Made by a program: the position numbers and the translations under genes. Shown here piece after piece: positions 2-64,000 of a stretch of 64,000 nt of DNA. The stretch is taken from NCBI RefSeq assembly GCF_029223525.1, contig NZ_JARHTQ010000004.1, positions 62,001 through 126,000 on the forward strand, in the 5' to 3' direction. Numbering within the stretch: position 1 is the first letter of the stretch; the number at the start of each line of letters is the position of its first letter. This DNA comes from Streptantibioticus ferralitis. GTDB lineage: Bacteria > Actinomycetota > Actinomycetes > Streptomycetales > Streptomycetaceae. The notes beneath the pieces were generated by a model. The model made no database searches and was not told the DNA's origin. It saw nothing but the letters and a program-made list of their open reading frames with translations.

Positions 2-1750
2 CTGGCCGTCGCCGGGACGTGCTCGCTCACCACCGAGGAGTTGACCGAACGGGCCAGGCGCGTGCGCGGCCTCGCGGCCGTCGAGAGCGAACTGTCCAAA
101 GCCCATGGCAGCTTTCACGTCATCGCCTCCGTCGGTGGCCACACCTACGTCCGCGGGACCCTGTCCGGGGAGCGGCGGGTGTACCTGGCGTCGGTCGAGG
201 GCGGCACCGTGTGCGCCGACCGCGCCCGCACCCTGGCCTGGCTCACCAGTGCCGAACTGGATGCCGCACAGCTCGCCGTGCGCCTCACCGGCTTCACCGC
301 ACCGCACCCACTGGCCGGTGGCGGGTTGTGGCGCGGTGTCCACGGCGTCGTCCCGGGTGAGGCGCTACACCTGGAACCAGGCGGTCAGTGGCATACGGCC
401 TGGTGGTGGCAGGCGCCCGAGAGCGAGCTGCCGCTCGCCGAGGCCGCTCCCGCCCTTCGGCAGGCGCTGCGTGCGGCCGTGGCGCTTCGGGTGCGGCCAG
501 GGGAGGTGCTGGGCGCCGACCTGTCCGGAGGCATGGACTCCACCTCCCTGTGCTTTCTGGCCGCCGAGGCCGGGGCCCGCCTGGTCGCCGCCACCCTGCA
601 CTGGACGGCGCCCGGCAACGAGGACCACGTCTACGCTCGGCACGCGTCCGAACACCTGCCCAGCGCCGAGCACTTGCTGTTCCCCTCCGCCGAGCTGCCC
701 GCCCATTTCACCGGGCTCGATGACCGCCGCGACGCCGGCGACGAGCCGTCGGCCGGCCTGCGAGACCGAGCCCAGCAGCACCACCTGGCGGAGGCGATGC
801 GGCTGCGCGGGGCCGTCCGCCGGCTGTCAGGGCACGGCGGCGACCATGTCGTCCAGCCGCCGGACGCCTACCTGCACGGGCTGCTGCGCCGCTCCCCGCT
901 GGTGGGACTGCGGCATGCCGCCGGTCTGCGGGCCCGCCGCCGCTGGCGACTGACCGCCGGTGTGCGCATGCTGCTCGACCGGCGTTCATACGGGTCCTGG
1001 CTGGCCGGGACGGCCGGGCAGCTGCGGGCCGCGCCGGCACGCGGTGCGGTCTGCGCACCGCAAGGGTGGGGACTGCGGCCACAACTTCCGCCATGGGCCA
1101 GCGACCAGGCCGCCGACCTGCTCGGCGAGCTGTTGCGTGCCGCGGCCCGCGACGCCGAGCCGCTGGCCGCCGAGCGCGGCCAGCACGCCTGGATTCGTCA
1201 GGCACAGGAAGCGGGACGGATTGCCGGGCACCTTGCGTTCGAGACGGTGGCCGCGGGCCTGCCCGCGCACAGCCCGTTCTGTGACGACGCCGTGATCAAC
1301 GCCTGTCTGGCGGCCCGGCCGCACGAGGCGGCGACCCCGTGGTCGTACAAACCACTGCTCGCCGCCGCGATGGACGGCCTGGTGCCCGCTCGCATCCTGC
1401 GCCGGACCACCAAGGACCACTGCGGCGTCGAGTGGCAACAGGGCCTGCGGCTGCACCGGCGCGACCTGGCCGCGTGGGCTGAGGACTCCCGGCTGGTGGC
1501 CGCGGGCGTCGCCGACGAGGAGCTGCTGCGGCGAGTCCTGCTCTCCCCGGGCCTGCTGCGAGGTGGAGCCCCCTCGCTGGAGTCCACGTTGGGTGCCGAG
1601 GCATGGCTGCGGGACCTGGAGGCGCAACCCGTCCCGGCTCACCTGAGTCGACCCGGTGTGGCCCGACCCGATCCGGACCGGGTGGACCGGTCTGCCCCGA
1701 GCACAAGTACACGCACAGAGGAGCACCACGTTGAGCCGACTACGTTCTGA
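2..1750 (+). CDS. Lasso peptide macrolactam synthetase (asparagine synthetase-like), 5' end outside window
   Basis: The reading frame is open to the left edge, so the N-terminus is missing; 582 residues are visible. The ATP-pyrophosphatase (PP-loop) signature SGGMDS is at about visible residue 175, the hallmark of the asparagine synthetase B fold. Lasso cyclases use this fold to adenylate an Asp or Glu side chain of the leaderless peptide and close the ring. The assignment to lasso biosynthesis rather than asparagine synthesis rests on the next two overlapping genes, a small PqqD-like protein and a transglutaminase-like peptidase, which form the typical actinobacterial C-B1-B2 order. The precursor and any exporter are not in the window. 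A primary-metabolism asparagine synthetase is unlikely because the N-terminal half is poorly glutaminase-like. Confidence 0.85.
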   Translation: MAVAGTCSLTTEELTERARRVRGLAAVESELSKAHGSFHVIASVGGHTYVRGTLSGERRVYLASVEGGTVCADRARTLAWLTSAELDAAQLAVRLTGFTAPHPLAGGGLWRGVHGVVPGEALHLEPGGQWHTAWWWQAPESELPLAEAAPALRQALRAAVALRVRPGEVLGADLSGGMDSTSLCFLAAEAGARLVAATLHWTAPGNEDHVYARHASEHLPSAEHLLFPSAELPAHFTGLDDRRDAGDEPSAGLRDRAQQHHLAEAMRLRGAVRRLSGHGGDHVVQPPDAYLHGLLRRSPLVGLRHAAGLRARRRWRLTAGVRMLLDRRSYGSWLAGTAGQLRAAPARGAVCAPQGWGLRPQLPPWASDQAADLLGELLRAAARDAEPLAAERGQHAWIRQAQEAGRIAGHLAFETVAAGLPAHSPFCDDAVINACLAARPHEAATPWSYKPLLAAAMDGLVPARILRRTTKDHCGVEWQQGLRLHRRDLAAWAEDSRLVAAGVADEELLRRVLLSPGLLRGGAPSLESTLGAEAWLRDLEAQPVPAHLSRPGVARPDPDRVDRSAPSTSTRTEEHHVEPTTF

Positions 1751-1988
1751 CGTCACCGCATGCCCGACCGACGACGGCATGGTTCTGCTGGATGAGCGCC
1801 GGGGGTGCTACTGGCAACTCAACGGCACCGGCGCCCTCGTCGTCCAGGCCCTTCTCGACGGCGCCACGCCTCAGCAGGTGGCCGATCAGCTCGCCCGGAC
1901 GCGGCCGGTGAGCCAAGAGCGCGCAGCCGCCGATGTCGCGGCGTTGGTGGACCAGCTCACGCGGGCGAAGCTGGTGACCGCCCCGTGA
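1731..1988 (+). CDS. Lasso peptide leader-recognition protein B1 (PqqD-like RRE)
   Basis: An 85-residue protein with the PqqD/RRE fold pattern: beta strands around MVLLDERRGCYWQLN, then an ALLDG-type helix and a C-terminal VDQLTRAKLV helix. Such proteins bind the leader of a RiPP precursor and deliver it to the peptidase and cyclase. The TTG at 1731 is chosen because AGAGGAG lies 7 bases upstream; an in-frame ATG at 1656 would lie deep inside the cyclase gene. It overlaps the cyclase by 20 bases and the next gene by 4, so the three are translationally coupled. Confidence 0.85.
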   Translation: MSRLRSDVTACPTDDGMVLLDERRGCYWQLNGTGALVVQALLDGATPQQVADQLARTRPVSQERAAADVAALVDQLTRAKLVTAP

Positions 1989-2410
1989 GCCAGGTCCTGG
2001 ACACCAGCGAGAATCGGCCGCCGCTGGGCCGCCGCCTCGCCGCCCGAGCCGCGGTCGCCGCCGCGCATCTCATCGCCCGGCTGCCGCCGCGCCGCATTCG
2101 CGCAGTGCTGCATCTGCTACGCCGTGGGGCCGAGCCCGCCGACTACGCCGAGGCGCTGCGGGCACGGCAGGAGGTGACGGCCACCAGCACGCTGTGCGCC
2201 GGGCGCTATTGCCTGCAGCGTTCGCTGGCCACGGCCCTGCTGTGTCGGCTGGGCGGCAGTTGGCCCACGTGGTGCTCAGGCGTGCGTACGCCGCCGTTCG
2301 CCGCGCACGCCTGGGTGGAAGCCGAGGGCCGACGCGTCGGCGAGCCGGAGGACACCGCGACCTACCGAGCGATGATCAGTGTGTCGCCGCCGGGTGCCAA
2401 CTCCACTTGA
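1985..2410 (+). CDS. Lasso peptide leader peptidase B2 (transglutaminase-like cysteine protease)
   Basis: A 141-residue protein of the lasso B2 family, which removes the leader peptide with a Cys-His-Asp triad of the transglutaminase fold. Cys76 sits in AGRYCLQRSLA and His108 in FAAHAWVEAEG, both at the family's conserved places; an acidic residue at 120-123 (GEPED) is the likely third member. The GTG start overlaps the B1 stop codon (GTGA). The hydrophobic N-terminal part (residues 15-45) is normal for the family. No lasso exporter gene follows, so export must be encoded to the left or elsewhere. Confidence 0.85.
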   Translation: MSQVLDTSENRPPLGRRLAARAAVAAAHLIARLPPRRIRAVLHLLRRGAEPADYAEALRARQEVTATSTLCAGRYCLQRSLATALLCRLGGSWPTWCSGVRTPPFAAHAWVEAEGRRVGEPEDTATYRAMISVSPPGANST

Positions 2411-2700
2411 GCGGAGGCCAGTTGGTGTCCATGGCGTGCTGCCGGACGGTCGTGTCCAGCAGTACGTACCGGCCAGGGTCGGGCTTCGGCGCGACGCCCT
2501 TGAGCGTGACCAGGGGGATGTCGCCTGCCTGCGTACGCGCACAGATCCGGGAGTTCTCGGAGAGTCGATCGAGCTTGATCGTCTGAGTGAAGTGCGTGTC
2601 CTGGCGGCAGGTGTTCAACGAACCCTTCTCAGACTTGTCCAGTAGGACGAGTCGGGTGTTGTACGAACCGAAGTTGCGACTCGACCGGTCGCACAGTCCG
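2376..2700 (-). pseudogene. C-terminal remnant of an unidentified protein
   Basis: The minus strand holds a coherent protein-like reading of about 105 residues (CDRSSRNFGSYNTRLVLLD, then SEKGSLNTCRQDTHFTQ, ending WHPAATH and a stop). It has no start codon: upstream the frame dissolves into an Arg-rich run at about 2700, next to the end of the AraC-type regulator. Four Cys residues and its composition suggest the C-terminal domain of a larger, perhaps extracytoplasmic, protein. It lies tail to tail with the lasso peptidase gene and overlaps its last codons. I do not recognise the family with certainty. Confidence 0.45.
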
Positions 2701-2731
2701 CGTCGCCGACGACAGCTGAGCCCGAAGGCCG

Positions 2732-3688
2732 TCAGATGCCTCGAAGGCTCGTCGTGGTTTTGCCGGTGCGTTCGCGAAGGAGTACGCGCAGGGTGTTGGG
2801 GTGTTCGTAGCCGACTTTGCGGGCGATGGTTTCCAGGGACAGTTCGGTGGTGCGCAGCAGGTGCGATGCTCGTTCGATCCTGAGGTCCTGGACGAAGCGG
2901 ATGGGTGAGGTTCCCAGGGTGCGCTGGACGGAGCGTTGCAGTGTGCGGTTGCTGACGCCGATGGCCTTGGCGGCGTCGGGGATGTTGATGGGTTCGCCGA
3001 GGCGTTCACGGGCCCAGCGTTCGAAGGCCGCGACGGTCGGATCGCTTTGCGCCAGGGCGCTGGGGATGGTGTAGGCGGACTGCGACGGGCGTTCGTCGAT
3101 GACCAGGTAGCGGGCCACCAGGTCGGCCAGCGCGGGGCTGCTGGCCCGGACGATCGACAGGGCGAGGTCGACATGTCCGAAGGCCGCGCCGGCGGTGGTG
3201 ACGCCGTCCGAATCGATGACCATCCGGCTTTGATCGATCTGGACCGCTGGGTACCGCGCGCGGAAGGCCGGTGCCAGCCACCAACTCGTCGTCGCGCGCA
3301 GACCGTTCAGGATTCCCGCCTCGGCGAGGAGGAAGGTTCCGGTGCAGGCGGAGGCGATGGGTGTGCCGCGTTCTCGGGCTTGGGCGATCTGGTTGCGGAC
3401 GGGGAGTGATGGGTCTGCGCTGATGTGGTCGAGCAGTGCTGTGGGGCGGCGCTCGGCCAGGGCGGGGACGATCAGCAGGTCCGCTGCTTCGGCGTGGGCG
3501 AGGGGTTCGGTGTCGACCAGGTGCCCGGCTCCGGTGCGTACCTGGGGTTGGGGGCCGATCGTGGTCACGTTCCAGGATGGTGGTTCGCGGATCTCCTCGC
3601 CCATGGCGTTGGCGCCGTCCAGTACGTCGAGGATCGCCGCGAGTCCGGAGTCGAAGACGCCGTCGTAGACGAGTACCGCTACCTCCAT
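2732..3688 (-). CDS. GlxA-type AraC family transcriptional regulator
   Basis: A 318-residue two-domain regulator. Residues 1-175 form a DJ-1/PfpI-like domain with the nucleophile-elbow segment IASACTGTFLLAEAG. Residues 215-315 hold the double helix-turn-helix of AraC proteins (INIPDAAKAIGVSNRTLQR; ETIARKVGYEHPNTLR). The start at 3688 (MEVAVLVYDG) matches the usual N-terminus of the family; upstream in-frame codons would extend it into the palindromic intergenic region. It is divergent from the small monooxygenase gene at 3802 and likely controls it. Confidence 0.85.
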   Translation of the reverse strand: MEVAVLVYDGVFDSGLAAILDVLDGANAMGEEIREPPSWNVTTIGPQPQVRTGAGHLVDTEPLAHAEAADLLIVPALAERRPTALLDHISADPSLPVRNQIAQARERGTPIASACTGTFLLAEAGILNGLRATTSWWLAPAFRARYPAVQIDQSRMVIDSDGVTTAGAAFGHVDLALSIVRASSPALADLVARYLVIDERPSQSAYTIPSALAQSDPTVAAFERWARERLGEPINIPDAAKAIGVSNRTLQRSVQRTLGTSPIRFVQDLRIERASHLLRTTELSLETIARKVGYEHPNTLRVLLRERTGKTTTSLRGI

Positions 3689-3700
3689 GACGTAAACGCT

Positions 3701-3743
3701 ATCAGTGATGTCGTTTCTGCCACTGATGTGGTTGCTGATCAGC
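3701..3743. promoter_or_regulatory. Divergent operator region with inverted repeats
   Basis: Between the AraC-type regulator and the monooxygenase gene are perfect arms ATCAGTG (3701-3707) and CACTGAT (3721-3727) separated by 13 bases, and a 10-bp palindrome GCTGATCAGC at 3734-3743. The spacing suits a dimeric regulator. That the AraC protein binds here is inference. Confidence 0.45.
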
Positions 3744-3801
3744 GCCGTAGGTTCGCTGTGTGCCGGATACCCGGCAGTTCCCATAGCGAGGAGTGACCAC
3801 G

Positions 3802-4098
3802 ATGAAGATCGGTCTGCTGGCGCGTATCGAGGCCAAGCCGGAGTACGCCGACAAGGTCGAGGCGATGCTGCGTGAGGCGGTGGCGTTGGCCGAGCGGGAG
3901 CAGCACACGGTGACCTGGTTCTCGTTCCGCCAGGACGCCACCACCTTCGGGGTGTTCGACACCTTCAACGACGAGCAGGGTCGTCAAGCACACCTGGAGG
4001 GCCGGATCGCCGCCGCGTTGATGGGTGCGGCGCAGACCATGCTGCGTTCGGCTCCGGTCATCACCCCGGTGGATCTGCTGGGAGTGAAGGTCTCCTGA
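3802..4098 (+). CDS. Antibiotic biosynthesis monooxygenase (ABM) domain protein
   Basis: A 98-residue protein of the dimeric alpha/beta barrel superfamily: it begins MKIGLLARIEAKPEYADK and carries the helix VEAMLREAVALAERE and the segment WFSFRQDATTFGVFDTF. ABM proteins act as small cofactor-free oxygenases or dimeric ligand-binding units; the substrate cannot be deduced. ATG 3802 is preferred to GTG 3793 because GCGAGGAG sits 8 bases upstream. Its only close neighbour is the divergent AraC-type regulator. Confidence 0.8.
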   Translation: MKIGLLARIEAKPEYADKVEAMLREAVALAEREQHTVTWFSFRQDATTFGVFDTFNDEQGRQAHLEGRIAAALMGAAQTMLRSAPVITPVDLLGVKVS

Positions 4099-4798
4099 CG
4101 GCTCGGTGGACCCCGTCTGAGCGAGGAGGCGGAGAGTGCAGATGACAGCGACCACCCGCTTGCACCCACGCGCGTCTCGTTCGAAACGCATCATGTGGTG
4201 ATCGTGATCTCCATGCCGTGTCCGTGTCGCGCACGGACACGGCGGAGAGGTCGGGAACGATCACGTCTGCGCCAAGCTCAAGCTCCGGCGCGCTGTACGT
4301 GGTTGTCAATCCCACGGTGAGGATGCCGCCGACTCGATCGCCTGGGCAGCTGCCTGACCGTGGCTCCGGCGGTTCAGCCCTGGGGGCTCTGCATCACTGG
4401 TCCGGGCCGGGGTCGCCGCCCTCGGCGCGGATCACGGGGCGGTCGCGATGGCGGACCGTCAAGTGAGGTCGCGAACCCGGGCGCACGGTGATCTTCGCCG
4501 CCCGGCAGCGGCCTACGCCACGCGTCCAGGAAATCGGCAGGTACTGCGCTCTGCCCCGGCCGACGGTCCGCCGAGCGGGTCGATGCGATCACTCGGCGGC
4601 GAGGCCGACGAGTCGCGCGCAGGGGTGTACCGGAGCAAATCATTGCAAACTTGAACACCTCCCCCCATGCCGAACCCATTCCCGGTCCGGCGCGGCCATG
4701 GGGCCCGTTCGCGGCATCCCGCTCAGGTGGCACCGTTGGAATGATCAAAAGGGTGGGGCGTTAGCATATGAGCACCGCCTAGCTCGAAAGAGAAACCT
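4099..4798. other. 700-base stretch without an intact gene
   Basis: No reading frame here looks complete. The only protein-like signal is a short minus-strand piece at 4222-4336, listed separately. Start signals for the GAPDH gene presumably lie in its last 100 bases. Confidence 0.6.
4222..4336 (-). pseudogene. Possible C-terminal fragment of a HAD-family phosphatase
   Basis: The minus strand reads GGILTVGLTTTYSAPELE followed by LGADVIVPDLSAVSV. This resembles the last beta-alpha unit of HAD sugar or glycerol phosphatases, where a GVTTTH-like strand is followed by ADxVVPDL. Nothing upstream continues the domain. The match is short and made by eye, so this could be coincidence. Confidence 0.3.
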
Positions 4799-6244
4799 GT
4801 GACTGTCAACGAGGACACGTTCACCGACTGGAAGTGCCGCGAGGAGATCGCGGAGTCGATGATCCCCATGATCGGGAAGCTGCATCGGGAGCGGGACGTC
4901 ACGGTCCTGCTGCACAGCCGCTCCTTGGTGAACAAGTCGGTGGTCAGCATCCTCAAGACCCACCGATTCGCCCGGCAGATCGCCGGTGAAGAACTTTCGG
5001 TCACCGAGACGCTGCCGTTCCTGGAGGCTCTCACCACGCTCGATCTCGGTCCTTCCCAGATCGACATCGGCATGCTCGCCGCGACGTACAAGACCGACGA
5101 CCGTGGTCTCTCGGTGGAGGAGTTCACCGCCGACGCCGTCGCCGGCGCCACGGGTGCCGACAAGATCGAGCGCCGCGAGCCGCGCGACGTCGTCCTCTAC
5201 GGGTTCGGCCGCATCGGCCGTCTCCTCGCCCGCCTGCTCATCGAGAAGGCCGGCTCCGGCAACGGCCTGCGGCTGCGCGCCATCGTCGTCCGCAAGGGCG
5301 CCGGTCAGGACATCGTCAAGCGCGCCTCGCTGCTGCGCCGTGACTCCATCCACGGCCAGTTCCAGGGCACGATCACCGTCGACGAGGCGAACAGCAAGAT
5401 CATCGCCAATGGCAACGAGATCGCGGTGATCTACTCCGACGACCCGACGTCGGTGGACTACACGGCATACGGCATCAAGGACGCCATCCTCATCGACAAC
5501 ACCGGCAGGTGGCGCGACCGTGAGGGCCTGTCGAAGCACCTCCGCCTCGGCATCGCCAAGGTCGTCCTGACCGCGCCGGGCAAGGGCGACGTCCCCAACG
5601 TCGTCCATGGCGTCAACCACGACATGATCAAGCCGGACGAGCAGATCCTCTCCTGTGCGTCCTGCACCACCAACGCGATCGTCCCGCCGCTGAAGGCGAT
5701 GGCGGACGAGTACGGCGTCCTGCGCGGCCACGTGGAGACCGTCCACTCGTTCACCAACGACCAGAACCTGCTGGACAACTACCACAGCTCCGACCGCCGC
5801 GGCCGCTCGGCGCCGCTCAACATGGTCATCACCGAGACCGGTGCCGCCTCCGCCGTCGCCAAGGCGCTGCCCGACCTCAAAGCGAAGATCACCGGTAGCT
5901 CGATCCGCGTCCCGGTGCCGGACGTCTCGATCGCGATCCTCAACCTGCAACTCGCGCGCGAGACCACCCGCGAGGAGGTCCTCGACTACCTCCGCAACGT
6001 GTCGCTGACCTCACCGCTCAAGCGCCAGATCGACTTCATCAGCGCCCCCGACGCGGTCTCCAGCGACTTCATCGGCTCGCGCCACGCCTCGATCGTCGAT
6101 GCCGGCGCGACCAAGGTCGAGGGCGACAACGCGATCCTCTACCTCTGGTACGACAACGAGTTCGGCTATTCCTGCCAGGTCGTCCGCGTCGTCCAGGCCG
6201 TCTCCGGGGTGGAGTACCCGACCTACCCGGCCCCGGCGGTCTGA
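4799..6244 (+). CDS. gap: Glyceraldehyde-3-phosphate dehydrogenase, long form
   Basis: A 481-residue GAPDH that oxidises glyceraldehyde 3-phosphate to 1,3-bisphosphoglycerate with NAD(P). Residues 1-125 are an N-terminal extension not found in the usual 335-residue enzyme. The Rossmann motif VLYGFGRIGRLLARLL follows, then the catalytic SCTTN cysteine motif and the His-containing HSFTNDQ. WYDNEFGYS near the C-terminus is the GAPDH signature. Long forms like this occur in actinomycetes beside a standard Gap. The start is GTG 4799. A perfect hairpin 73 bases after the stop suggests a single-gene transcript. Confidence 0.92.
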   Translation: MTVNEDTFTDWKCREEIAESMIPMIGKLHRERDVTVLLHSRSLVNKSVVSILKTHRFARQIAGEELSVTETLPFLEALTTLDLGPSQIDIGMLAATYKTDDRGLSVEEFTADAVAGATGADKIERREPRDVVLYGFGRIGRLLARLLIEKAGSGNGLRLRAIVVRKGAGQDIVKRASLLRRDSIHGQFQGTITVDEANSKIIANGNEIAVIYSDDPTSVDYTAYGIKDAILIDNTGRWRDREGLSKHLRLGIAKVVLTAPGKGDVPNVVHGVNHDMIKPDEQILSCASCTTNAIVPPLKAMADEYGVLRGHVETVHSFTNDQNLLDNYHSSDRRGRSAPLNMVITETGAASAVAKALPDLKAKITGSSIRVPVPDVSIAILNLQLARETTREEVLDYLRNVSLTSPLKRQIDFISAPDAVSSDFIGSRHASIVDAGATKVEGDNAILYLWYDNEFGYSCQVVRVVQAVSGVEYPTYPAPAV

Positions 6245-60682: not shown

Positions 60683-63600
60683 ATGTCAATGTTCGGCTGG
60701 CGCAAACCGCAGCTAGCAGGCGTCACTCTCACCGCCGCGTCCATGGTCCTGGCCTTCGGCACGGCCGCGAACGGCACCCCGCTGACGCTGACTTCTGCAC
60801 CGAACGCCCAGGCGGTCTCGGACAACAGAGCACCGACACCTGTGATCGTGATCCTGAAGGACCAGATACCGAGCGTCCCGGCCGACGCCGGGCATCTGAA
60901 GTCGCGGGCGCGGCAGACCGCGTCCGCGCAGGCTCCGTTGCTGGCGAAGGTCAAGGCGAGCGGCGGCACCCGGATCAAGAGCTTCGTGGTCGGCAACGCC
61001 TTCTCCGCGACGGTCAGTCCGGCGCTACGGGCAGCCCTGGCGGCCGACCCCGCGGTCGCCTCGGTGGTCCCCGACGAGACGGTGACGGTGAACCCGCCGC
61101 ACGCCGCCCCGCCGGTGGCGCCGGGTGGCACGAAGGGCCCCAGGGCCAGCACGCCCAAGGCCCAGGGCTCCGCCCACAACGGGCAGCAGGACCCGAACGC
61201 GATCTGCCCGAGCGACCCGTCCAAGCCCCTGCTGGAGCCCGAAGCGCTCTACTCGACGCATGTCGAGAGCACCCCCGGCTCGCCGGGCGCCCAGGACATC
61301 GCCGACGGCAGGGGCGTCAAGGTCGCGTACATCGCCGACGGGCTGGACCCCGACAACCCCGACTTCATACGGCCTGACGGCTCGCACGCGGTCATCGACC
61401 ACCAGGACTTCTCGGGCGATGGCTGGGACGCGCCCAGCGGTGCAGCGGAGGCGTTCGGCGACGCCTCGGCGATGGTCGCGCAGGGCACCCAGAGCTACGA
61501 CCTGTCGAAGTTCGTCAACCCGACGCACCCGCTGCCCGCCGGATGCAACATCCGCATCAAGGGCATCGCACCCGGCGCCTCCCTGGTGGCCCTCAAGGCA
61601 GGCGGCAGCACGTTCCCGAACTCGGCGATCCTGCAGTCCATCGACTACGCCGTCTCGGAGGCCCATGTCGACGTGCTCAACGAGTCGTTCGGCAGCAATG
61701 TCACCCCGGACAGCAGTGCGCACGACACCATCTCGCTCTTCAACGACCAGGCGGTGGCCGCCGGTGTGACCGTGACGGTGTCCAGCGGTGACGCCGGCAT
61801 CAACAGCACCATCGGCACACCGTCCACCGATCCGCATGTGATCTCCACCGGTGCCTCGACGGACAACCAGTCCTACCTGCAGACCGGTTACGCGGCGGCG
61901 CAGTTCTCCAATGGCACCTGGGCCGACAACAACATCTCGGCGCTGTCCTCCGGAGGCTTCACCCAGGCAGGACGCACCGTGGACCTGGTCGCCCCGGGCG
62001 AGGCGGACTGGGCGCTCTGCTCGCCCAAGATCTCCGAGTACACCGAGTGCACCAACTTCAACGGCACCGGCAGCCCGATCCAGCCGTTCGGCGGCACCAG
62101 CCAGTCCGCGCCGCTGACCGCCGGTGCGGCGGCCCTGGTGATCCAGGCCTACCGGGACGGCCACCAGGGCAAGTCCCCGACGCCGGAACTGGTCAAGCAA
62201 CTCCTCACCGGTACCGCCCAGGACCTCGGCCTGCCGGCCCAGGAGCAGGGCGCGGGCCTGCTGAACGTCCGCGGCGCCGTCGAGGCCGCCCGCGGCTACC
62301 AGAACTCCTCGGGCGCGCGGCAGAGCGACACCCTCGCCGTCACCACCGGCCAGGTGGACATCACCGGCCACCCGGGCTCGGACCACACCGCGAACGTCAC
62401 CGTGGTCAACACCGGCCACACCACCCAGACGGTGAACGGCGCCACCCGTACCTTCGCGCCGCTGGCGGACGCGCGGCAGACCGTGGCGCTGAACTCCTCC
62501 ACCGACCAGCAGTTCGCGTACGCCACCAACGGCGCGCCGTGGGTACACCACGACGTGAAGTTCACCGTCCCGCCGGGTGCCGACCGACTCGCCGCGTCGA
62601 TCGCCTGGAAGGGCGCCGCACAGCGCTCGGGCGCCAACACGGTGACCCCGGTGGTCCGGCTGACCCTGCTGGACCCCTCCGGCCGACTGGAGACCAACAC
62701 CCGTCCGCAGGGCGGCCCGGTCTCGGCGAACTTCGGCATCGCCGATGTTCCGCACCCGGTCGCCGGTGAGTGGACCGCGATCCTCTACACCCCGGTCGGC
62801 AGCAACGGCTTCACCGGCCCGGTGCAGTTGGACACCGCCACCCAGCGTGCGGTGCAGGCCGGTTCGGTGAGCCCGCAGGTGACGCAACTGGCGCCGGGCC
62901 AGAGCAAGACCCTGCACGTCCACCTCACCACTCCGGCGACCAGCGGTGACAGCGCGGAGTCGATCACCGTCGCGGGCTCGAACGGCCACACCACCAGCGT
63001 TCCGGTGATCCTGCGCAGCCTCGTCGACCTGTCCGGCGGTCGCGGTGCCTTCAGCGGCGCGGTCACCGGCGGCAACGGCCGCGATGCCTCGCCCGCGCAG
63101 TCCTTCACCTATGCGTTCGACGTGCCGCGCGGCCACCGCGACGTCCGGGTCGGCGTCACGCTCAGCGATCCGAACGGGCTGGTGCAGGGCACACTGATCA
63201 GCCCCAACGGCACGCCGATCGACATCGAGAGCAACGCCCTCATCAACCCGGCCGGTGACCTCACCGGTACCACCCGGGGCGTCTCGGCCACCACGCTCAA
63301 CCCGGCCGCGGGCCGCTGGCGCTTCGTCCTGGTGGTGATCAACCCGGTCAGCGGTGCCGAGCTCAACGCGCCGTTCCACGGCACGATCGGCCTGGACCAG
63401 GACCGGGCGACCGCCACCGGCCTGCCGAACAACGCGGCCGCCAAACTGGCGGCGGGCAAGCCGACCACGGTGAACGTGACCTACACCAACAACACCGCGG
63501 CCACCCAGATGCTGCACGCCGACGGCCGGCTCGCCACCATGGTGGACCTGCCGCTGGTGCCGCAGGTCACCTCGGGCACCGTCGCACTGCCGCTGCACCC

Positions 63601-64000
63601 GACCTCGACGGTCCCCGGCTTCCTGGTGCCCCCCGGCACCGACAAGCTGACCGCCGTCGCGGCCTCCTCGGTTCCCGCGCAGCTGGAACTGGGCGCCACC
63701 AGCGGTTCGCCCGACGCGTTCGGCGATCTCAAGCAGGCGCAGGACGGCTCGACCGTCTCGGTAGTCAAGGACGAAGGCAGCACCTCGCAGCCGGTCGTCC
63801 CGGGCTTCTGGAGCAGCTACGTGCAGCAGATCGGCCCGTTCCCGGCCGCCGGGGCGCCGGCGGGCACCTCGACGATCACCGCGAGCGCTCACACCCAGGC
63901 GTTCGACCCGGCGATCACCTCCAGCACCAACGACCCGTTCGCCGCCGCCGCGAACGCCTCGGCACCGGCGCTCAAGCCGGTCGCCGTCAAGCCCGGCGCC
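60683..64000 (+). CDS. Large secreted serine protease, S8-like with sedolisin-type residues, 3' end outside window
   Basis: At least 1106 residues, open to the right edge. A signal peptide (AGVTLTAASMVLAFGTAANG) is followed by an I9-like propeptide (VIVILKDQIPSVPADAGHLK to VASVVPDETVTV). The catalytic domain has Asp219 in VAYIADGLDPDNPDF, no HGT-type His motif but EAFGDASAMVAQG (Glu256, Asp260), SSGDAG with Asp370 at the oxyanion place, and Ser473 in GGTSQSAPLTAG. After about residue 540 come beta-sandwich domains of the kind that follow large subtilases. AAAGGA precedes ATG 60683/60689; both are possible starts. Confidence 0.85.
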   Translation, partial: MSMFGWRKPQLAGVTLTAASMVLAFGTAANGTPLTLTSAPNAQAVSDNRAPTPVIVILKDQIPSVPADAGHLKSRARQTASAQAPLLAKVKASGGTRIKSFVVGNAFSATVSPALRAALAADPAVASVVPDETVTVNPPHAAPPVAPGGTKGPRASTPKAQGSAHNGQQDPNAICPSDPSKPLLEPEALYSTHVESTPGSPGAQDIADGRGVKVAYIADGLDPDNPDFIRPDGSHAVIDHQDFSGDGWDAPSGAAEAFGDASAMVAQGTQSYDLSKFVNPTHPLPAGCNIRIKGIAPGASLVALKAGGSTFPNSAILQSIDYAVSEAHVDVLNESFGSNVTPDSSAHDTISLFNDQAVAAGVTVTVSSGDAGINSTIGTPSTDPHVISTGASTDNQSYLQTGYAAAQFSNGTWADNNISALSSGGFTQAGRTVDLVAPGEADWALCSPKISEYTECTNFNGTGSPIQPFGGTSQSAPLTAGAAALVIQAYRDGHQGKSPTPELVKQLLTGTAQDLGLPAQEQGAGLLNVRGAVEAARGYQNSSGARQSDTLAVTTGQVDITGHPGSDHTANVTVVNTGHTTQTVNGATRTFAPLADARQTVALNSSTDQQFAYATNGAPWVHHDVKFTVPPGADRLAASIAWKGAAQRSGANTVTPVVRLTLLDPSGRLETNTRPQGGPVSANFGIADVPHPVAGEWTAILYTPVGSNGFTGPVQLDTATQRAVQAGSVSPQVTQLAPGQSKTLHVHLTTPATSGDSAESITVAGSNGHTTSVPVILRSLVDLSGGRGAFSGAVTGGNGRDASPAQSFTYAFDVPRGHRDVRVGVTLSDPNGLVQGTLISPNGTPIDIESNALINPAGDLTGTTRGVSATTLNPAAGRWRFVLVVINPVSGAELNAPFHGTIGLDQDRATATGLPNNAAAKLAAGKPTTVNVTYTNNTAATQMLHADGRLATMVDLPLVPQVTSGTVALPLHPTSTVPGFLVPPGTDKLTAVAASSVPAQLELGATSGSPDAFGDLKQAQDGSTVSVVKDEGSTSQPVVPGFWSSYVQQIGPFPAAGAPAGTSTITASAHTQAFDPAITSSTNDPFAAAANASAPALKPVAVKPGA

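Follow-up and report, generated by a model that had tools for sequence, protein, structure and literature searches.

How might a subtilase work once its catalytic histidine is gone? The question is raised by a gene at the end of a 64,000-nucleotide stretch of the Streptantibioticus ferralitis genome (assembly GCF_029223525.1, contig NZ_JARHTQ010000004.1, positions 62,001 to 126,000 of the forward strand), hereafter called the window, in which a first-pass annotation made from the sequence alone had proposed that a subtilase-like protein could be a Ser-Glu-Asp protease, intermediate or independently evolved and possibly acid-active. The open reading frame (ORF; 60683–64000, plus strand, as are all features given below with window coordinates) overruns the window end: the window holds the first 1,106 of its 1,161 codons, the stop falls at about 64168, and the full ORF lies at positions 1495–4980 of locus L001. 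Subtilisins (peptidase family S8) and sedolisins (S53) have a common fold and different catalytic sets, and how one became the other is unclear. We consider it rather likely that the gene and its homologues (the family) encode a secreted, propeptide-activated serine endopeptidase of S8 fold, working with a sedolisin-type Ser473-Glu256-Asp260 triad and with Asp370 as oxyanion residue (residue numbering counts from MSMF...).

Scaffold and active-site residues

The protein begins with a hydrophobic N-terminus, continues with an I9-like propeptide and then an S8-like domain, and ends in a beta-rich C-terminal part of about 600 residues. Its first residues form a basic and then hydrophobic stretch (60689–60776) that looks like a signal peptide on inspection, i.e. 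the protein is probably secreted. The catalytic domain (61307–62257) matches the Pfam Peptidase S8 profile PF00082 with 90.9 bits (cut-off 21.8). This comparison of S8 and S53 profiles, which the first-pass annotation had proposed, came out for S8: PF00082 matched 33/33 family members, and the S53 profile matched none of the family loci included in that search at E 1e-3. The I9-like propeptide, also named at that stage, stands for the family, as I9 is matched by 32/33 members with E of 1 or lower (best match 5.8e-10); for the window protein itself the match remains just below threshold (20.0 bits vs the Pfam cut-off of 21.2), and its propeptide core (residues 86–135; 60938–61087) is drawn from this match together with predicted secondary structure. 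The propeptide profile of the family also reached into three S8 loci, where it matched four frames with E between 1e-5 and 0.003. At E up to 1, the 33 members together matched six Pfam families, and the S53 propeptide, Pro-kuma (PF09286), was not one of these.

Comparison with solved and predicted structures gave the same picture. All matches listed in profile searches against solved structures were S8 proteins (60 of 189, and 60 of 149 in a second search), as were all those listed by Foldseek for a predicted family model (50 of 573), and Vpr (8jmw), Tk-SP (3afg) and pro-subtilisin E (3whi) stood high in the lists; with the model of an S53 control protein, the first 17 Foldseek matches were S53. 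The hhalign scores were 221 for family and S8, 88 for family and S53 and 85 for S53 and S8, i.e. the family aligned with S53 no better than S8 itself does. Outside the active site, the family is of the S8 type by profile, propeptide and predicted fold, not of the S53 type. True membership of S53 was ruled out by the profiles, the I9-like propeptide and the fold search, by which S53 controls were called S53. The region compared with the C-terminal calcium site of S53 enzymes did not align reliably. With the S8 subtilisins the family shares the fold, the order of elements, the I9-like propeptide, the GTS nucleophile block and the best profile match; it is unlike them in having Ala, Pro or Gly for Asp32, Glu in the His64 column and Asp in the Asn155 column.

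These replacements resemble what is described for sedolisins. Section 2.4 of PMC11593635 characterises the S53 core by Glu as base (residue 1 of a single helical segment), Asp as acid (residue 5 of that segment) and an oxyanion position changed from Asn to Asp, and a passage of PMC6278154 states that the sedolisin Glu substitutes for His. All three features, i.e. the S53-type Glu base, the Asp acid on a shared helix and the oxyanion Asp, are present in the family. As first read from the sequence, EAFGDASAMVAQG begins at Glu256 (61448–61450) and has Asp260 (61460–61462) four residues on, SSGDAG places Asp370 (61790–61792) at the oxyanion position, and the Ser block GGTSQSAPLTAG gives Ser473 (62099–62101, in GGTSQSAP). 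The family alignment had 55 rows including the window protein, two of them half-length, hence 54 rows per site. Each of the four residues was invariant (54/54) and remained so after filtering at 95, 80 and 70 % identity (41, 23 and 17 rows); these filtered sets exclude the two half-length rows, some unfiltered rows being near-copies and the lowest pair identity being 35 %. Glu256, Asp260 and Asp370 were the sole acidic residues of the window protein invariant in every row, with Asp222 (52/54), Asp242 and Glu334 nearly so. Thr472 and Gly471 were invariant in 42/42 rows. Among 22 S53 proteins compared, E-x-x-L-D was invariant, and the oxyanion Asp and nucleophile Ser of the family shared columns with 15/15 S53 rows.

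In joint MAFFT alignments, Glu256 falls in the column of subtilisin His64, Asp260 four columns on, Asp370 in the Asn155 column and Ser473 in the Ser column. The His64 column was Glu in 22/22 family rows of a 75-row joint alignment (22 family, 38 S8 and 15 S53 rows), and all 38 S8 rows had His, Asn155, Asp32 and Ser, although the His count is uninformative because those rows were picked for the HGT string. Two hallmarks of S8 are missing: the Asp-His-Ser triad, also in the HMMER register, which puts a Gln at the His place, and the oxyanion Asn, which is Asp in 54/54 family rows vs Asn in 38/38 S8 rows. The absence of a His-containing HGT block from the catalytic domain was borne out, the only HGT seen in the frames of the gene being PFHGTIG in the C-terminal part. 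A His elsewhere completing the triad was also considered and rejected: the sole invariant His of the domain, His494 (62162–62164), lies 21 residues after Ser473, just past the helix that starts with Ser473, and is too far away.

One earlier assignment has to be moved by a residue. The first-pass annotation had taken Asp219 for the retained subtilisin Asp. The strand preceding the active site aligns without a gap (GVKVAYIADGLD in the family, GVKVAVLDTGVD in S8), also in the alignments to solved S8 proteins, and therefore Asp32 corresponds to Ala218 (61334–61336) and Asp219 (61337–61339) to subtilisin Ser/Thr33. Column 218 holds Ala in 50, Pro in 2 and Gly in 2 of 54 family rows vs Asp in 38/38 S8 rows, and residue 219 varies (Asp in 37, Glu in 7 and others in 10 of 54 rows); the gapless alignment and this variability exclude Asp219 as a retained subtilisin acid. 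With Ala, Pro or Gly at the Asp32 place and Glu in the His64 column, Ser alone is therefore left of the Asp-His-Ser triad, and on the alignments the shift to Ala218 strengthens the case for a Ser-Glu-Asp site. Sedolisin, kumamolisin and TPP1 are like the family in E-x3-D on one helix, the oxyanion Asp and the Ser in GTS; they are unlike it in carrying Pro-kuma instead of an I9-like propeptide and in keeping an acidic residue at the Asp32 place (Asp or Glu in 14/15 S53 rows vs 0/54 family rows). Altogether, the invariant S53-type residues, the Ser-only remnant of the triad and the S8 fold and propeptide lend good support to the central claim, namely that a subtilase scaffold carries a Ser-Glu-Asp protease site.

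Predicted structure, proposed mechanism and probable working pH

In the AlphaFold2 model of the family (predicted template modelling score 0.83, mean predicted local distance difference test score, pLDDT, 76), a helix of residues 255–265 (61445–61477; model residues 208–218) carries both Glu256 and Asp260, one turn apart. By the order of elements this helix occupies the place of the subtilisin helix that begins at His64. In the control model, made for an S53 protein from the same genome (mean pLDDT 72), the invariant Glu119 and Asp123 lie on a helix of residues 113–130, which sits in the corresponding place between strands.

Passages of PMC8004986 name Ser278, Glu78 and Asp164 in the mechanism of kumamolisin. 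By analogy, Ser473 would be the nucleophile, and Glu256 would act as base and proton donor, relaying the proton between Ser473, the leaving group and water. Asp260 would be the acid next to Glu256 and support it (after PMC11593635), and Asp370 might serve as both oxyanion stabiliser and general acid, stabilising or protonating the tetrahedral intermediate. The I9-like propeptide would act as chaperone and inhibitor and be cleaved off in cis, and the protein would be exported. Given such kumamolisin-type roles of Glu256, Asp260 and Asp370, an optimum at acid pH would be expected, and by this analogy the enzyme is probably acid-working.

Growth near neutral pH is common among soil actinobacteria. 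To a Ser-Glu-Asp enzyme tuned to near-neutral conditions, which would be a sub-case of the reading proposed here and not exclusive of it, we would give a modest chance. The catalytic domain has a low isoelectric point (median 4.31), and this is unspecific, as S8 rows are acidic too (4.83); acid adaptation was rejected as a reading of the charge, the ranges of S8 and S53 overlapping that of the family. Other observations speak against neutral tuning: among genomes scanned for both, 16/16 that bear the family have S53 propeptides vs 16/25 without the family (Fisher p 0.007, uncorrected for kinship), bog and palsa occur among the source names of the family, and sedolisins are described as acid proteases in a passage of PMC6278154.

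One further residue deserves mention. Glu334 (61682), the Glu in an NES stretch, is kept in 52/54 family rows, and at its place S8 rows mostly have Leu or Met and S53 rows mostly Asn. The stretch concerned is described in a passage of PMC11593635 as contacting the catalytic base and possibly affecting specificity.

Alternative roles and alignment register

Could the site instead be dead? Two of the three S8 triad residues are lost, and the protein might be a pseudoprotease, i.e. a subtilase without Asp and His whose remaining role is binding, as with CspC of Clostridioides. CspC-type pseudoproteases likewise combine the S8 fold with lost triad residues, and 22/33 family members gave weak matches to the NCBIfam CspC_non_triad model at E up to 1. 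All these matches are below cut-off, however, the window protein reaching 14.7 bits against a cut-off of 675. Furthermore, Ser473, Thr472, Gly471 and the S53-type set are invariant despite pairs down to 35 % identity, and it is not evident why a dead site would retain E-x3-D together with an oxyanion Asp. To our knowledge, CspC-type pseudoproteases do not retain a complete alternative triad. We therefore regard a pseudoprotease as improbable.

Several points count against the assignment of a sedolisin-type site. The family model is of moderate quality, and the invariance of Glu256, Asp260, Asp370 and Ser473 would also fit another role of these residues, Gln267 (54/54) and His494 being likewise invariant. 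An S8 protein of the same genome that has the HGT block (L078) also has Asp in the oxyanion column of a 70-row alignment. As to the register, HMMER alignments to solved S8 proteins pair Gln267-Gly268 with His-Gly; for Asp260, hhalign and MAFFT coincide (four residues after His), but hhalign leaves the S8 HGTK unpaired in a gap and has Glu256 four residues ahead of His. The hhalign alignment of family and S53 begins past the Glu/Asp helix, and MAFFT misplaces the ExxLD of S53. Glu256 and Asp260 are thus not connected with S53 by any of the sequence alignments, and they were matched to it through the motif, its invariance and the predicted structure. We prefer the MAFFT register because it does without the HGTK gap and fits the predicted helix.

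Taken literally, the HMMER register would make the protein a degenerate S8 enzyme with the invariant Gln267 at the His place and Asp219 or Asp222 as acid, which seems highly improbable given that the model has its helix at 255–265 and merely three helical residues soon after 268, that MAFFT sets Glu256 at His64 with hhalign concurring for Asp260, that 10/54 rows have no Asp or Glu at 219, and that Gln is not a base.

The oxyanion stretch of L078 reads PAGDDG, and this protein is perhaps another subtilase with Asp at that position. It was excluded from the 75-row alignment for its long branch.

Origin, distribution and gene surroundings

Two trees bear on the origin of the sedolisin-type site proposed here, both unrooted and with actinobacterial S8 sampling only. 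The 68-row tree was derived from 105 rows, 70 of which remained after redundancy filtering, minus two short S8 rows. For the 75-row tree, 11 S8 and 7 S53 of these 70 rows were taken out because of their length, redundancy or long branches, another 6 family rows and 17 S8 rows were added (the S8 rows from loci L136–L164, filtered for length, HGT string and redundancy), and five active-site columns were masked while the Ala218/Asp32 column was kept. Family, S8 and S53 form three clades in both trees (supports in the 75-row tree 99/99, 95/79 and 100/100, respectively), and the family is separated from S8 by a much shorter path than from S53. A position of the family within S8 was not rejected by the approximately unbiased test (p-AU 0.17 and 0.295 for two groups named after the tree had been seen). 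That the complete sedolisin chemistry arose independently a second time, within the subtilisin lineage and with Asp32 and His64 lost, or else that the family is a relic of the switch between S53 and S8, is a proposal whose chances we see as about even; as the trees are unrooted, second origin and relic fit equally.

Siezen, Renckens and Boekhorst (2007, Proteins 67:681) reportedly described a sedolisin-resembling subset of prokaryotic subtilases in which catalytic residues are altered, among them a Glu as base. In that subset the Asp is said to lie on a beta-strand and not on the Glu helix. In the family it lies on the Glu helix, a difference that sets the two apart, although they may overlap. 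We found no description of the present family in the literature covered, which was mostly outside subscription journals and was judged from listings, the starts of abstracts and passages. An S8 scaffold and propeptide with an S53-type site makes the change between S8 and S53 testable by mutagenesis and structure, and in the opposite direction the kumamolisin-As mutants E78H and D164N exist as solved structures, judging by the structure titles. If our reading is true, annotation as S8 by profile mis-states the mechanism and the expected pH and could conceal acid proteases useful in biotechnology, and nature seems to have set the chemistry of one enzyme on the frame of another.

The genome that holds the window has one family copy, in addition to five S8 proteins with the HGT block and four S53-profile matches. 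Family searches at E 1e-20 were positive in 3/396 genomes phylum-wide and in 20/61 relatives, and those at E 1e-40 in 5/198 and 1/24 genomes of two other classes and 8/296 of the same class; the search sets overlap, and the phylum-wide, relatives and own-class counts include the genome of the window itself. A phylum-wide profile search at E 1e-25 matched 10/396 genomes, three of them with family proteins at 2.5e-140 or better and the other seven at 7.8e-26 to 8.7e-28, all bearing the HGT block. Because of this gap in E-values and the few positive genomes, the family is sharply bounded and patchy. Scanning named genomes yielded 13 family loci, 12 of which are from actinobacteria. The remaining one, a bog contig labelled Candidatus Melainabacteria, groups with two actinobacterial rows (81/91) in the 68-row tree and is unresolved in the 75-row tree; it may be mis-binned.

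The codon make-up of the protease gene is consistent with the host (GC content at third codon positions 0.92). Its C-terminal beta-rich region (62324–64000 within the window) resembles Ig, Fn3 and PPC domains in Pfam matches that, for the three members compared, were all below cut-off, and a profile of this region matched no non-family protein among the frames of loci L001–L122 at E up to 1. In the 12 loci that had flanks, no ORF matched ORFs in at least three other loci, save the protease and antisense frames within it (ORFs of at least 120 amino acids passing a GC filter were compared). Downstream of the window end, a minus-strand ORF (L001:5382–6308) resembles, on inspection, the ATPase of a peptide-exporting ABC transporter; of the 12 related loci compared, it had a match in L002 only.

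Four cysteines are invariant in the family, i.e. Cys175 (61205; all 33 rows of a smaller alignment), Cys288 (61544; 55/55), Cys446 (62018) and Cys456 (62048; 54/54 for both), and therefore possibly form two disulfides if the protein is secreted. A subgroup (L034, L035 and L038–L043) has ESxLDDG in place of EAFGDAS and no acid at 219 and retains E-x3-D; six genomes carry it in addition to another copy, and two have no other. Two part-length family sequences (L132 and L135) lie on two contigs of one incomplete genome (G715) and reflect either an assembly break or two copies. Finally, sedolisins are strongly expanded in eight related genomes (G414, G430, G431, G433–G435, G438 and G441), each of which has 8 to 10 matches to Pro-kuma (S53).

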